Of a stretch of DNA of 64,000 nucleotides, positions 38,290 to 59,401 are shown in pieces; position 1 is the stretch's first letter; every line of letters begins with the position of its first letter. This DNA comes from Ruminococcaceae bacterium YAD3003. GTDB taxonomy: Bacteria > Bacillota > Clostridia > Saccharofermentanales > Saccharofermentanaceae. The notes under the pieces were generated by a model. It saw nothing but the letters and a program-made list of their open reading frames with translations, did no database searches and had not been told where the DNA came from. The stretch covers positions 248,001 to 312,000 of the forward strand of contig FNPA01000001.1 in NCBI GenBank assembly GCA_900107185.1, written 5' to 3'. The translations under genes were made by a program, and so were the position numbers.

Positions 38290-39408
38290 TTATTCCTTTC
38301 CCTCGTCCTTCTTTTCGTCCTTTTTATCTTCCTTCTTCTCAGCCTTCTTTTCTTTCTCTTCCTTTTCGAGGGCTTCTCTTCTTGCCTTTTCTGCTGCTTC
38401 CTTCTCAGCTGCAGCCTTTGCTGCGAGTGCTCTTCTCTTTCTTCTCTTGTTACGTGCTGTGAAGACGATGATGAGAACTACTGCTGCGATGACGATCATT
38501 ACGATGATGCCGGGGATGCATGCGATGATTCCGAGGAGGAGATTCTGGAAGAAATCTACTGTGTTCTCCCACATATCGCTGAACTGTTCTGAAACTCTCT
38601 CGCCGTATGTAACAACGTGAGCTTCTTCTACTTCTGTCTCTTCGAGAACTTCTCTTACAGTAAGGTAAAGTGATGCGTATGTAACCTGGTTCTCAAGAAC
38701 TCTGATTCTTGATTCACAGCTCTCGATCTGATATCTGACTTCTGTAAGTCTGTTCTGCAAAACGATAATTGTATCGAGGTCTTCAGCCTGCTCCAAAAGC
38801 TTAAGGAGCTGCTCATATTCAACTCTGAGAGATTCGATTCTGGCCTTTGTATCAACGTACTCCAATGTAACGTCTGAAGAACTCTCAGTTGATGAAATAA
38901 CAATGCACTTATTGCCTACGGTTGAAATGAGTGAATCCATCTGGTCTGCAGGAACACGGATCGTGTAATTCAATGTGCGGAGGTCTCTGTTTGTGCCTGT
39001 TCCGGACATTGAAGAATTCTCAATATAACCGCCGAGTGCCTTGATCTGATTCTCGATATCAGTCTTCGCACTGGCGATATCTTTTGTCTCACAAGTCATT
39101 GAAACTGTTCTGATGAGGAGTCTTCCCTGTGAAGGATCAACTGTTACCTCATTAACGATCGTTCCGCCTGCCTGCTCAGGAGCAGCACTAACATCCCATT
39201 CAGCCTCGGTGTCGTAATAAATGTCGGCTCCGTTATCAATAGAAAATCCTGCTGACGTTGCATTCAGATTGGGTGAATCATAAAATGCTACGGTCTCATT
39301 TGCAACCATGTTTTTTCCCTGGCTGTCTGACGATCTGCTAGAGCACCCCGCTATAAGTGATAATGTGAGGGCGCCTGCTATAACCGGTATCAATATTCTC
39401 TTTTTCAT
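38290..39408 (-). CDS. DUF4349 lipoprotein with coiled coil and C-terminal membrane anchor
   Basis: A 372-residue protein. The signal peptide ends in the lipobox LIAGCSS. The DUF4349 domain follows (RLLIRTVSMTCETKDIASAK; YTIRVPADQMDSLIS) with a long coiled coil (ARIESLRVEYEQLLKLLEQA), then one transmembrane helix (GIIACIPGIIVMIVIAAVVL) and a ~45-residue Lys/Glu tail that would be cytoplasmic. The ATG at 39408 has GGAGG upstream; further in-frame codons upstream have no ribosome site. Family function is unknown; an envelope-stress or structural role is possible. Confidence 0.85.
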   Translation of the reverse strand: MKKRILIPVIAGALTLSLIAGCSSRSSDSQGKNMVANETVAFYDSPNLNATSAGFSIDNGADIYYDTEAEWDVSAAPEQAGGTIVNEVTVDPSQGRLLIRTVSMTCETKDIASAKTDIENQIKALGGYIENSSMSGTGTNRDLRTLNYTIRVPADQMDSLISTVGNKCIVISSTESSSDVTLEYVDTKARIESLRVEYEQLLKLLEQAEDLDTIIVLQNRLTEVRYQIESCESRIRVLENQVTYASLYLTVREVLEETEVEEAHVVTYGERVSEQFSDMWENTVDFFQNLLLGIIACIPGIIVMIVIAAVVLIIVFTARNKRRKRRALAAKAAAEKEAAEKARREALEKEEKEKKAEKKEDKKDEKKDEGKE

Positions 39409-39518
39409 AACTATATCCTCCATGTGAGTTTTTGAGTTGTTACCATGAATACAGTTCAAATTTTGAAAATGTTGCATCGCGCTCGTAAAATTTTTTTCGC
39501 AAGTTTATACTTATCTCT

Positions 39519-56622: not shown

Positions 56623-57225
56623 ATGAATCAATATGTTACAGGACCCATGATCAAGCGCCTGCGTGAGGAGAAGAAGATTACACAGCAGCAGCTTGCAGAT
56701 AAGATGAATGTCAGTGATAAGACCATCTCGAAATGGGAGACCGGCCGGGGAATTCCGGATATCTCTCTCATCGAGCCATTGGCAGAAGCTTTGGGAATAT
56801 CGGTGATCGAACTTTTCGCCGGGGAAGATATCGTTAACACGAATAAGTCTTTCCATATGCTGAAGACGAAGTTCTACGTATGCCCTGTCTGCGGAAACGT
56901 AATCCACAGCACGGGCGAAGCGGTGATCAGCTGCTGCGGAATTACTTTGCCGCCTTTGGAGGCAGAACCTGCTGATGAGGAACACTCCATAAATATCGAG
57001 CTGACCGAAGACGAATATTACGTGTCAGTCGGCCACGACATGACCAAGAAACACTACATTTCATTCCTGGCATGCGTTCACGAAGACGGTGTGGAGATCA
57101 GAAAACTCTACCCGGAGAGTATGGCCGAAGCGCGATTCAGAAAGCCTCTGGCCAAATACATCTACGCGTACTGCAATCACCACGGGCTGTTCATGGAAGA
57201 GATCAAAAGAAAGACGGGAAAATAA
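56623..57225 (+). CDS. XRE-family regulator fused to a complete desulfoferrodoxin (superoxide reductase-like) domain
   Basis: A 200-residue protein. Residues ~9-65 are an XRE helix-turn-helix (MIKRLREEKKITQQQLADKM; TISKWETGRGIPD). From residue 83 it is desulfoferrodoxin: center I cysteines 87, 90, 104 and 105 (CPVCGNVIHS; SCCG), and all center II ligands, His121, His138, His144, Cys184 and His187 (HDMTKKHYI; YCNHHG). The second domain could sense or reduce superoxide. Proteins of this layout are known in Clostridia, but the retention of every iron ligand suggests redox-responsive DNA binding. AAGGAGG precedes the ATG. It is followed by a terminator and the lipoprotein/radical SAM genes. Confidence 0.88.
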   Translation: MNQYVTGPMIKRLREEKKITQQQLADKMNVSDKTISKWETGRGIPDISLIEPLAEALGISVIELFAGEDIVNTNKSFHMLKTKFYVCPVCGNVIHSTGEAVISCCGITLPPLEAEPADEEHSINIELTEDEYYVSVGHDMTKKHYISFLACVHEDGVEIRKLYPESMAEARFRKPLAKYIYAYCNHHGLFMEEIKRKTGK

Positions 57226-57238
57226 TCCCGTTTTTTTT
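57213..57238 (+). terminator. Terminator after the XRE gene
   Basis: ACGGG and CCCGT pair around AAAATAAT, followed by eight T. It directly abuts the TTGCAA element of the next promoter. Confidence 0.75.
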
Positions 57239-57268
57239 GCAACATTTTTATTTCCTTATCTGTATATA
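57237..57268 (+). promoter_or_regulatory. Promoter element of lipoprotein 1
   Basis: TTGCAACATTT (from 57237) and CTGTATATAAG (TATATA 57263-57268) with 20 nt between the hexamers. The same two blocks with the same 20-nt spacing stand before lipoprotein 3. The pattern is closer to an alternative-sigma (ECF-like TGCAAC) promoter than to the 17-nt sigma-A type; that reading is tentative. Confidence 0.5.
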
Positions 57269-57300
57269 AGACAAAAGGACCATAACGGGAGGATATAAAA

Positions 57301-57615
57301 ATGAAGATTACACCTGCTAAAAACTATAAGAAGCCTTTATATGCAATAGGCATCGCAGCAGCAATAATGACAGTTGCAGTAACAGGCTGCACAGAACCCG
57401 TCGATTATGCAGGCAATGAAGTAATCCATACGAATGAGACCCAGGAGACCAGCTATCATAAAATAGACGGAGACGAGGTCATCTTAGGGGGCGAGGCTGA
57501 ATTACCGCCCGATTATTACGATATGGGCGACGATTCGGACGAGACCGAAGAGACGGCAAGACCTGTGGAATTAGGTGGCGCTGCCCAGGTTCAGGAACCG
57601 TACGAGACCACATAA
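57301..57615 (+). CDS. Small lipoprotein 1 of the radical SAM cassette
   Basis: A 104-residue protein. The N-terminus MKITPAKNYKKPLYAIGI is almost identical in the three tandem paralogues, followed by a hydrophobic core and lipobox AVTGC (Cys30). The mature part is short and strongly acidic, with DGDEVILGGEAEL and VELGGAAQV motifs that recur in the paralogues. No enzyme domain is present. A conserved leader segment before each lipobox, plus a radical SAM/SPASM gene downstream, suggests a modified lipid-anchored peptide. GGGAGG precedes the ATG. Function inferred only from the cassette. Confidence 0.75.
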   Translation: MKITPAKNYKKPLYAIGIAAAIMTVAVTGCTEPVDYAGNEVIHTNETQETSYHKIDGDEVILGGEAELPPDYYDMGDDSDETEETARPVELGGAAQVQEPYETT

Positions 57616-57616
57616 C

Positions 57617-57646
57617 TTGCAATTAACTCGTAGGAATATATATTAT
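57617..57646 (+). promoter_or_regulatory. Promoter-like element before lipoprotein 2
   Basis: TTGCAA (57617-57622) and TATTAT (57641-57646) are 18 nt apart in the 57-nt gap between lipoproteins 1 and 2. The flanking bases differ from the conserved elements before lipoproteins 1 and 3. Confidence 0.4.
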
Positions 57647-57672
57647 TAAAGAAGCATTAGGAGGGCACGGAA

Positions 57673-58026
57673 ATGAAGATCACACCTGCTAAGAACTATA
57701 AAAAACCACTCTATGCGATCGGAATCGCTGCAGCACTGTCAATGACAGCAATGGCAACAACAGGCTGCATCGGTTATGCCGGAGGTCTGGAGACCACTGT
57801 TCAGGAAACTGAAGAGACACAGAAGGACGGAACCGTAGACGGCAAGACCAACAAGACTTACTGCAAGCCCGACGGCGATGATGTAGTACTCGCAGGTGAC
57901 GTCAGACTCGAAGGTGAGGCTACGGTTGAGACCGAGGTCGAACTTGACGGTGATGTCATAGTTAATACTAATCCGGTTGAGACAGACGTAAGGCTCGACG
58001 GCGGTGTCAGCATAGATGAAGGCTGA
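57673..58026 (+). CDS. Small lipoprotein 2 of the radical SAM cassette
   Basis: A 117-residue paralogue of lipoprotein 1 with the same MKITPAKNYKKPLYAIGI leader and a lipobox TTGC (Cys32). The mature part has repeated acidic beta-like units: DGDDVVLAGDVRLEGEA, VELDGDVIVN and VRLDGGVSIDEG, and one extra cysteine in TYCKPDG. The repeats are the longest version of the DGD-V-L-G pattern among the three. AGGAGG stands upstream of the ATG. It is probably a substrate of the downstream radical SAM enzyme. Confidence 0.75.
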   Translation: MKITPAKNYKKPLYAIGIAAALSMTAMATTGCIGYAGGLETTVQETEETQKDGTVDGKTNKTYCKPDGDDVVLAGDVRLEGEATVETEVELDGDVIVNTNPVETDVRLDGGVSIDEG

Positions 58027-58047
58027 TACTGAGAACCCGAATTAAAT

Positions 58048-58079
58048 TTGCAACATTTATAGGCCCTCACCTGTATATA
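58048..58079 (+). promoter_or_regulatory. Promoter element of lipoprotein 3 and the radical SAM gene
   Basis: TTGCAACATTT (from 58048) and CTGTATATAGG (TATATA 58074-58079) repeat the element before lipoprotein 1 with the same 20-nt spacing. The following AAAAG-CCATA and GGGAGG blocks are also shared. Confidence 0.5.
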
Positions 58080-58109
58080 GGTTAAAAGCCATACAGGGAG
58101 GGTTTTATT

Positions 58110-58334
58110 ATGAAGATCACAAGCATTAAGAATTATAAGAAGCCGTTATATGCTATCGGCCTGTCTGCGGTTATAATGGCAGTAGCCATAACCGGATGTA
58201 CCAAACCTGAAAAAGGCGATGTCCAGTTGGGCGGAGCAGCTGAAGTACGTGAAGACGAACAGGAAACTGAAACTTCAATTGAACCCGTTGTAACCGAAGG
58301 TGGAATTATTTTCATAGATACAGAAGAGAATTAA
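58110..58334 (+). CDS. Small lipoprotein 3 of the radical SAM cassette
   Basis: A 74-residue paralogue with leader MKITSIKNYKKPLYAIGL and lipobox AITGC (Cys30). The mature part is only ~44 residues, acidic, with GDVQLGGAAEV matching the VELGGAAQV segment of lipoprotein 1. It is the shortest form and lies two bases before the radical SAM start, so the two are translated together. GGGAGGG precedes the ATG. Confidence 0.75.
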   Translation: MKITSIKNYKKPLYAIGLSAVIMAVAITGCTKPEKGDVQLGGAAEVREDEQETETSIEPVVTEGGIIFIDTEEN

Positions 58335-58336
58335 TT

Positions 58337-59401
58337 ATGAATCTGACACTGCATTTAACTGATAACTGTAATATGGATTGCAGCTACTGCATCCGTGAGA
58401 AATGCCCAAAAGACATGACCGAAGAGGTTCTCTATAAGGCGTGCGACCTGGCTTTTTCAAAAGGACAGCGTGCAGGTCTCTGCTTCTTCGGCGGCGAGCC
58501 TCTCCTCAAAAAAGACCTGATCTACAAGGCCCTCGACTACTGCGAGGCCAAGTCAAAAGAGACAGGTATGAGGTTCGACTGCAAAATGACTACCAACGGA
58601 ACTTTGCTGGACGAGGAGTTCATCCTTCGTGCAAAGAAAGCGAAGATGGGAATCGGCCTCTCGTTTGACGGCAAGGCCCAGGACGTCTGCAGATTTTTCG
58701 TTGGCGGTAAACCCACTTCAGCAGTTGTCGAAGAGAAAGCGAAATTACTGTTAAAACTCATGCCTGAATCGACCGCTCTCGCAACGATCGCACCCCAGGC
58801 TGTTCCCTATTATTTTGAATCCGTAAAGTATCTTCATGACCTCGGGTTCCGCAAAGTATCTTTCGTTCTGGCATACGGAAATAAAGTCAACTGGACTGAA
58901 GAAGATCTGAAACTTCTCCGTGTTGAGCTCGAGAAAACAGCTGATTACATTAAGGAACTTTTCATCAAAAAAGAGCGCTTCTTCATGTCTGCATTGATCG
59001 TTAAGATCACAGACTGTATCAAGGGCGCAAACTCTGCAGAACGCTGTCATCTGGGCGTCAGACAGATGCCCGTTACACCCGACGGCGACCTCTATCCCTG
59101 CACTTCATTTATCGGTGATGAGCCGTATAAGTTGGGAACTGTTTTCGAGGGTGTAAACGACGCGAAAGTAATCGAGTTGTCGAAGCGTTCGTCCACCCCT
59201 GAAACATGTGTTAACTGCGACCTCGTTAAGCGCTGCACAAACTCATGCGGATGCGCCAACAGAATGAACACCGGCGACGAGAACAAGGTGTCACCTCTCC
59301 AGTGCACTTACGAACGCATGCTGATCGAGATCGCCGATGCATTAGGCGAAGAACTGTATCAGATAGACCCTGTAAGATTCATGGAATATTACTCTAAATA
59401 A
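58337..59401 (+). CDS. Radical SAM/SPASM peptide-maturation enzyme
   Basis: A 354-residue enzyme. CNMDCSYC (Cys11, 15, 18) binds the radical SAM cluster, GGEPLLKKDLI is the SAM motif, and the C-terminal third has a SPASM-type set (CHLGVRQMPVTPDGDLYPC; CVNCDLVKRCTNSCGCANRM, then LQC) for auxiliary clusters. SPASM enzymes usually modify peptides; the three paralogous lipoproteins directly upstream are the obvious substrates. No RRE recognition domain is visible. The start is two bases after lipoprotein 3, with a weak ribosome site, indicating coupling. Product chemistry unknown. Confidence 0.9.
   Translation: MNLTLHLTDNCNMDCSYCIREKCPKDMTEEVLYKACDLAFSKGQRAGLCFFGGEPLLKKDLIYKALDYCEAKSKETGMRFDCKMTTNGTLLDEEFILRAKKAKMGIGLSFDGKAQDVCRFFVGGKPTSAVVEEKAKLLLKLMPESTALATIAPQAVPYYFESVKYLHDLGFRKVSFVLAYGNKVNWTEEDLKLLRVELEKTADYIKELFIKKERFFMSALIVKITDCIKGANSAERCHLGVRQMPVTPDGDLYPCTSFIGDEPYKLGTVFEGVNDAKVIELSKRSSTPETCVNCDLVKRCTNSCGCANRMNTGDENKVSPLQCTYERMLIEIADALGEELYQIDPVRFMEYYSK

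Follow-up and report, generated by a model that had tools for sequence, protein, structure and literature searches.

The window analysed here, a stretch of 64,000 nucleotides from Ruminococcaceae bacterium YAD3003, holds a cassette, three lipoprotein genes followed by a radical SAM/SPASM gene, that belongs, as far as we searched, to a real, conserved, and so far undescribed radical SAM-lipoprotein system. The lipoproteins are likely the substrates of the enzyme. Judged from the sequences, their signal peptide looks like a docking tag, and the neighboring enzyme probably alters a short motif that is repeated in the protein bodies. The initial annotation had read the lipoproteins as radical SAM substrates with a conserved leader, a variable body, and a lipid anchor, and this reading is well supported: leader and enzyme co-occur and are syntenic, the leader is conserved, and the bodies repeat a motif. 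It had also held that radical SAM-lipoprotein pairings were noted in genome surveys. We found no such report in the literature searched (subscription journals lay mostly outside its coverage), nor any paper on such pairs or containing these sequences.

Three lipoproteins with a shared leader precede the enzyme gene

The three lipoprotein genes and the radical SAM/SPASM gene run in one direction across 57301-59401, according to the ORF calls (Table 1). Lengths of 104, 117, and 74 aa, annotated earlier for the lipoproteins, were confirmed by the ORFs, as was an enzyme start (58337) two bases past the stop of lipoprotein 3. The near-identical N terminus claimed for the tandem proteins was borne out as well: over the first 17 residues, the paralogs are identical at 17/17, 15/17, and 15/17 positions (38-41 of 51 nt), and beyond this shared segment they diverge strongly. 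Each of the three has a lipobox ending in TGC. The leader, Y9-x-x-P12-x-Y14, lies in the n-region of the lipoprotein signal peptide. Since the six lipoproteins tested, those of the window included, stayed below the cut-off of every Pfam and NCBIfam model, the system offers a defined target made up of small proteins. For lipoprotein 2, a bactofilin/beta-helix reading was dropped, as the Pfam match (E 0.053) fell short of the cut-off, and PADLOC defense-system models gave zero matches for the window lipoproteins. Directly upstream of the cassette (56623-57225) lies a gene for an HTH protein with a desulfoferrodoxin-like C-terminal part, which is not a conserved neighbor elsewhere.

Table 1. Features of the cassette and copies of the promoter-like element in the window
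Feature	Position	Strand	Remarks
Promoter-like element, first perfect copy	57238..57268	+	TGCAACATTT-N12-CTGTATATA; 0 mismatches; before lipoprotein 1
Lipoprotein 1, 104 aa	57301..57615	+	leader/signal peptide MKITPAKNYKKPLYAIG..TGC; acidic Cys-free body; motifs YAGN, IDGD, LGGE, LGGA
Lipoprotein 2, 117 aa	57673..58026	+	leader as in lipoprotein 1; body motifs YAGG, LAGD, LEGE, LDGD, LDGG
Promoter-like element, second perfect copy	58049..58079	+	before lipoprotein 3
Lipoprotein 3, 74 aa	58110..58334	+	leader as in lipoprotein 1; body with LGGA motif and C-terminal EGGIIFID segment
Radical SAM/SPASM enzyme, 354 aa	58337..59401	+	no N-terminal RRE-sized region; extra conserved Cys306 in SPASM region
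Promoter-like element, third copy	39446-39476	-	2 mismatches; before DUF4349 lipoprotein gene 38290-39477 (-)

Leader and enzyme occur together across the genus

We built a leader profile (A1) from 21 leaders and searched 85 genomes of the genus for leader and enzyme, counting a leader as present at E up to 1e-6 and an enzyme at E up to 1e-100. Both were found in 47 genomes, the leader alone in 1, the enzyme alone in 0, and neither in 37 (Fisher 2e-23, ignoring kinship); that is, the leader occurs in 47/47 enzyme-bearing and 1/38 enzyme-lacking genomes. These data come from one genus and are not phylogenetically independent. The leader-only genome is 85% complete, with no enzyme found. A looser tally of 58 leader-positive genomes includes 10 with only E above 8e-4, which we left uncounted. 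One genome (G082) has a 37%-identical enzyme that was scored as absent; here, too, the gene upstream of the enzyme encodes a lipoprotein that carries the body motif and a diverged form of the leader.

Linkage is equally tight. An upstream leader gene stands at 45 of 49 orthologous loci, ending no more than 72 bp from the enzyme start in 44 of these. Three of the remaining loci (L095, L096, and L104) have the enzyme at a contig end, and one (L115) lacks an adjoining leader gene; its genome carries one elsewhere. No other neighbor is conserved: among ORFs of at least 100 aa, the largest other cluster covers 13/51 loci at scattered positions, and among small ORFs (40-115 aa) the top cluster covers 13/49 loci, its members running antisense and mostly where the leader gene lies, and the next covers 6/49. 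A conserved second enzyme beside the radical SAM gene was not found among the neighbors of the 51 loci. The genome search for leaders next to SPASM enzymes that the initial annotation had proposed thus finds them, at 45/49 genus loci and at 69/74 loci of named genomes, with two more of the latter showing the C-terminal end of a lipoprotein; a leader common on lipoproteins of enzyme-lacking genomes, which it had named as contrary evidence, was seen in one of 38 such genomes of the genus.

Could the leader be no more than the usual lipoprotein signal peptide of this lineage, and the enzyme a chance operon partner? The conserved segment does sit in a lipoprotein signal peptide, and unlinked copies exist: two further leader lipoproteins (L122 and L123) lie on other contigs of the same genome, so the leader is not confined to the enzyme's side. 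Other lipoproteins, however, go without it. Three of the seven lipoprotein-like ORFs of the window carry the leader, and all three are beside the enzyme. With the co-occurrence across 85 genomes and the linkage at 71/74 named loci (from the best 80 of 388 relatives), chance partnership is very improbable.

The pairing recurs beyond the genus with a looser leader

Named genomes were scanned with an alignment of 27 enzymes, and the best 80 of 388 relatives, some of them within the genus, were used; 74 of these loci had at least 300 bp upstream. Among the 74, a leader lipoprotein lies beside the enzyme in 69, and its C-terminal end only is visible in 2 more. An automatic rule found an adjoining upstream lipobox ORF at 64/74 loci, and 62 of these 64 fit the leader pattern; the other two (L200 and L224) have variants that we assigned by reading. 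Reading added seven loci, with the lipoprotein upstream (L210, L241), downstream (L207, L225, L233), or partial, with the leader out of view (L212, L223). No leader lipoprotein was seen at three of the 74 loci (L185, L218, L219). The pairing is found again in Clostridia of gut and rumen, among them Hungatella hathewayi DSM 13479 (L236), and the leader motif accompanies enzyme subfamilies only about 35-40% identical to the window enzyme.

Two types of lipoprotein were distinguished. Type A proteins resemble those of the window; type B proteins are about 210-400 aa long and follow the lipobox with a segment HGxGxGSxGC...LSEEEA or an HGG variant. A structural model of a type B lipoprotein (mean pLDDT 77) had no confident PDB match (best E 0.36). 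In the enzyme tree, a single branch (93/93, not starred) holds the 10 type B enzymes together with two unassigned rows, and type A enzymes do not form one group (4 changes). Type B cassettes also occur on contigs labeled Prevotellaceae (L225) and Treponema (L242), by transfer or mis-binning. At four loci (L027, L031, L033, L099), the lipoprotein nearest the enzyme carries TAGIVS or TDGIVS as a C-terminal segment.

All of 21 type A leaders keep P12 and Y14, and 6 of them have another residue in place of Tyr9; in 13 type B proteins, Y9, P12, Y14, and P15 are kept without exception. For other lineages, we collected 53 leader-bearing ORFs, picked by P-x-[YIF], from loci whose enzymes have <60% identity. 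They divide into YxxPxY (23), YxPxY (9), YxxPxI (5), PxY only (13), and none of these (3). Taken together, these variants give P-x-Y as the common core, preceded in most cases by a Tyr at a distance of two or three residues, and the leader is less fixed outside the genus than within it. A Cys occupies the lipobox position in 98 of 99 leader proteins, and the remaining one is cut by a contig end.

A glycine-centered motif is repeated in the lipoprotein bodies

The bodies had been described as acidic with a DGD-V-L-G/LGGAA pattern; patterned and acidic they are, and the pattern is better given as V-x-[LYI]-x-G-[DEG]-x-x-[IV], of which the mature part usually holds one to several copies. Across 78 unique short bodies, the loose form, [LYIMFV]-x-G-[DEGAN], was counted 209 times, compared with 43.9 after shuffling (sd 6.0, maximum 65, 1000 shuffles). 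It is present in 70 of the 78 and missing in 8, and Val or Ile prevails at positions -4 and +4. The Gly alone is invariant, as the definition used for the search requires (position +1 is itself Gly in 51/209 and Ala in 10/209 occurrences), so no reactive residue stands out. Since the motif was read from the 78 short bodies, we used the 53 ORFs of other lineages as an independent set, cut to 110 residues and including a few false members (L205 -1900, L215 -2571, L242 -1033). The stricter motif was found there 47 times versus 1.8 in shuffles (sd 1.4, maximum 7, 500 shuffles) and the loose one 100 times versus 49.4. In 30 other lipobox-like ORFs, the strict motif occurred twice versus 0.2 in shuffles and the loose one 11 times versus 12.5, which is chance level.

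Leader and motif are also found on larger proteins. Nineteen of 98 leader proteins are long (186-408 aa), some of them unlinked to an enzyme, and in 16 of the 19 the loose motif lies within 40 residues of the lipobox Cys (it does not in L121, L132, and L133). Pfam had no match for the four long proteins tested. That larger, partly unlinked lipoproteins bear both features suggests a lipoprotein modification system and not solely a peptide cluster. The earlier view of the proteins as modified-peptide precursors is to be refined accordingly, since the system is not confined to small peptides.

The enzyme is a SPASM protein with an extra conserved cysteine

The window enzyme matches Pfam Radical_SAM at E 1.3e-17 and scores 20.2 bits with SPASM, just below the cut-off of 21.5. 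Radical SAM/SPASM enzymes have a CxxxCxxC motif and seven SPASM cysteines, and the enzyme holds the full set. C11, C15, and C18 of its CxxxCxxC motif, together with C291, C294, C300, and C323, are kept in 46/46 aligned enzymes, and C237, C255, and C304 in 43/46. An extra cysteine of the SPASM region, Cys306, is present in 43/46 and absent from three comparators, namely 5wgg, an SCIFF-like enzyme of the same genome, and L271. The three aligned enzymes without Cys306 (L219, L235, L242) have lost Cys237, Cys255, and Cys304 as well. L162 lacks the same four cysteines, and the enzymes of L235, L242, and L162 adjoin lipoproteins with a G-rich segment instead of HGxGxGSxGC; these four loci form a possible altered-cluster subfamily. 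At L087, L089, and L149, the enzyme copies have one in-frame stop in the assembly and are either decayed genes or assembly errors.

The predicted enzyme model (mean pLDDT 93) is closest to PDB 5why (TM 0.83), which, like 5wgg, we take to be the SCIFF-type maturase CteB. In the alignment, residue 3 of the window enzyme falls opposite residue 99 in the CteB-structure chain; the first ~98 residues of that chain, where we place the RRE, have no counterpart, and hence an RRE-sized N-terminal part is missing. Neither an N-terminal extension on the enzyme nor a conserved RRE-candidate neighbor was found at the loci compared. A defense role was rejected: the two PADLOC viperin models that the enzyme matches (E 1.6e-16 and 2.4e-13) cover just its radical SAM core, residues 4-119.

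Its best NCBIfam match is PapB (NF047865), which raises the alternative that the cassette is a PapB-like ranthipeptide (or sactipeptide) cluster whose enzyme makes Cys-to-Asp/Glu thioethers in the lipoprotein bodies. The bodies are indeed rich in Asp and Glu. Besides the lipobox Cys, 46 of 79 short bodies contain one or two cysteines, in several cases as YCKxDxD, and the motif is present in 45 of the 46; type B lipoproteins have a nearly invariant Cys. The other 33, however, contain no Cys beyond that of the lipobox and so no Cys donor of the kind that ranthipeptide and sactipeptide cores have, which makes obligatory thioether chemistry unlikely. Twenty-five of these 33 carry the motif, which is rarer in Cys-free than in Cys-bearing bodies. 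The PapB score, 189.8 bits, is also far under the curated cut-off of 340, and Cys306 is missing from the comparators. A search for PapB in 299 genomes gave one match, below the cut-off at 316 bits, which we take to be QhpD-like from its length and upstream gene. Thioether-forming enzymes have a cluster site that binds the substrate Cys, and Cys306 may close this site. On balance, we regard a thioether cluster as improbable.

Cys306 also bears on a second alternative, a peptide epimerase that inverts the hydrophobic residues flanking the Gly to give a protease-resistant extracellular segment. Known epimerases target Val/Ile, with a Cys serving as the H donor (accessible text of PMC8326336), a part that the extra conserved cysteine could play, and the hydrophobic residues of the motif alternate at -4, -2, +2, and +4. 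Against this, EpeE is only a distant structural match (rank 47, TM 0.47), and the joint loss of Cys306 with Cys237, Cys255, and Cys304 fits a cluster ligand better. We consider epimerization, which would be mass-neutral, unlikely and rank it after cross-linking or desaturation. The preferred chemistry would be Cys-independent and centered on the motif Gly or on the hydrophobic residue at -2. Its likeliest form, which we put forward tentatively, would be an oxidative cross-link or desaturation with a shift of -2 Da per motif.

A promoter-like element connects leader genes with an ECF-like sigma gene

The promoter-like element (Table 1) occurs at three sites in the window at up to 3 mismatches, versus 0.03 expected, and the DUF4349 lipoprotein gene behind the third copy is a candidate further member of the regulon. 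Own promoters had been claimed for all three lipoproteins; perfect copies agree with this for genes 1 and 3, but gene 2 has no element. A sigma-70 consensus scan remained at chance level (4 found, shuffles 3.5, sd 1.9). In the genus, the element (up to 3 mismatches) lies within 160 bp of 43/99 leader genes, compared with 0/1980 shuffles and 0/99 for the reversed pattern. The same genome has 15 sites, 6 of them perfect, versus 3 for the control; an earlier pattern with different spacing, which gave 3 sites against 2 for its control, was replaced by the N12 form.

On contig 29 of this genome (L263), a perfect copy precedes an ECF-like sigma gene whose product has sigma-70 regions 2 and 4 and ECF size, and another copy in the vicinity precedes two serpin lipoproteins (E 1e-78 and 2e-77). 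Other sites precede lipoprotein genes and operons that we read as MoxR-like, and some precede genes without an evident envelope link. One copy precedes an operon with an unlinked leader lipoprotein as its second gene (contig 13), and an unlinked leader lipoprotein on contig 8 has no element before its gene. In other lineages, no match was found within 3 mismatches; three related loci match with 5. We take the element to resemble ECF promoters, a likeness for which a literature search found nothing. Since many operons of the genus share it with the ECF-like sigma gene, the modified acidic lipoproteins probably serve envelope stress, possibly as, for example, protease-resistant surface or linker segments.

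A model for lipoprotein modification before export

We suggest, with good though not full confidence, that lipoproteins are modified in the cytoplasm, ahead of their export, by a radical SAM system that the leader guides. Lacking an RRE, the enzyme would bind the n-region of the signal peptide, and this binding could delay Sec export until the motifs are modified. It would act on the repeated body motifs, in large members close behind the Cys to be lipidated, after which Lgt would lipidate the protein and signal peptidase II cleave it. As these two process lipoproteins, export and leader removal could be left to housekeeping machinery. The lack of a protease or exporter gene had been called unusual: none is indeed conserved nearby, but none would be needed if Sec, Lgt, and signal peptidase II serve, as the lipobox implies. 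A broader version, which we hold somewhat short of even, is that one enzyme finishes the whole lipoprotein set, small and large, linked and unlinked, by docking on signal peptides and placing a Cys-free mark on the membrane-near repeat under ECF envelope-stress control.

Comparison with known systems

The SCIFF-type maturase CteB offers the closest solved fold and differs in its RRE-sized N-terminal part. PapB ranthipeptide maturases are the best sequence family; they too are radical SAM enzymes with repeated target motifs per precursor, and PapB makes Cys-Asp/Glu thioethers (PMC9413430, accessible text). Unlike theirs, our enzyme scores below the curated cut-off, Cys-X3-Asp is not required, and many putative substrates are Cys-free.

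In bufferins, which are multinuclear iron oxidase (MNIO) RiPPs with Sec signal peptides, the signal peptide likewise replaces the typical leader, and lipoprotein signals are present in about 16% of Buf2 members; the accessible text of PMC12452194 calls Sec signal peptides rare among RiPP precursors. It also gives preliminary results that the sequence recognized by the enzyme includes the signal peptide, so the idea of signal-peptide recognition is not new in itself. Bufferins differ in enzyme class, in their Cys motifs, and in a separate partner protein.

The closest parallel is offered by RiPP-lipoprotein hybrids, which have been shown for MNIO enzymes and named DAG-RiPPs (DybA/DybH, NedA; preprint PMC12636315, accessible text). 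Their defining lipoprotein signal peptide with lipobox is seen here too, and the systems would share a cytosolic enzyme and housekeeping lipidation and cleavage. The DAG-RiPP enzyme family also modifies proteins >30 kDa, a counterpart to the long leader lipoproteins. The enzyme there is an MNIO and here a radical SAM/SPASM protein; in the main text of that preprint, a search for "radical" found no occurrence. DybH-type enzymes read a C-terminal motif, and leader independence is expected for lipidated RiPPs (PMC12636315, accessible text), whereas here the n-region of the signal peptide is the conserved part. If our reading is true, radical SAM chemistry would extend beyond secreted natural products to surface lipoproteins, with the lipoprotein signal peptide doubling as the enzyme-recognition leader. 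It would then bear on how precursors with signal peptides escape export until they are modified, a question already raised in connection with MNIO systems (PMC12452194, accessible text).
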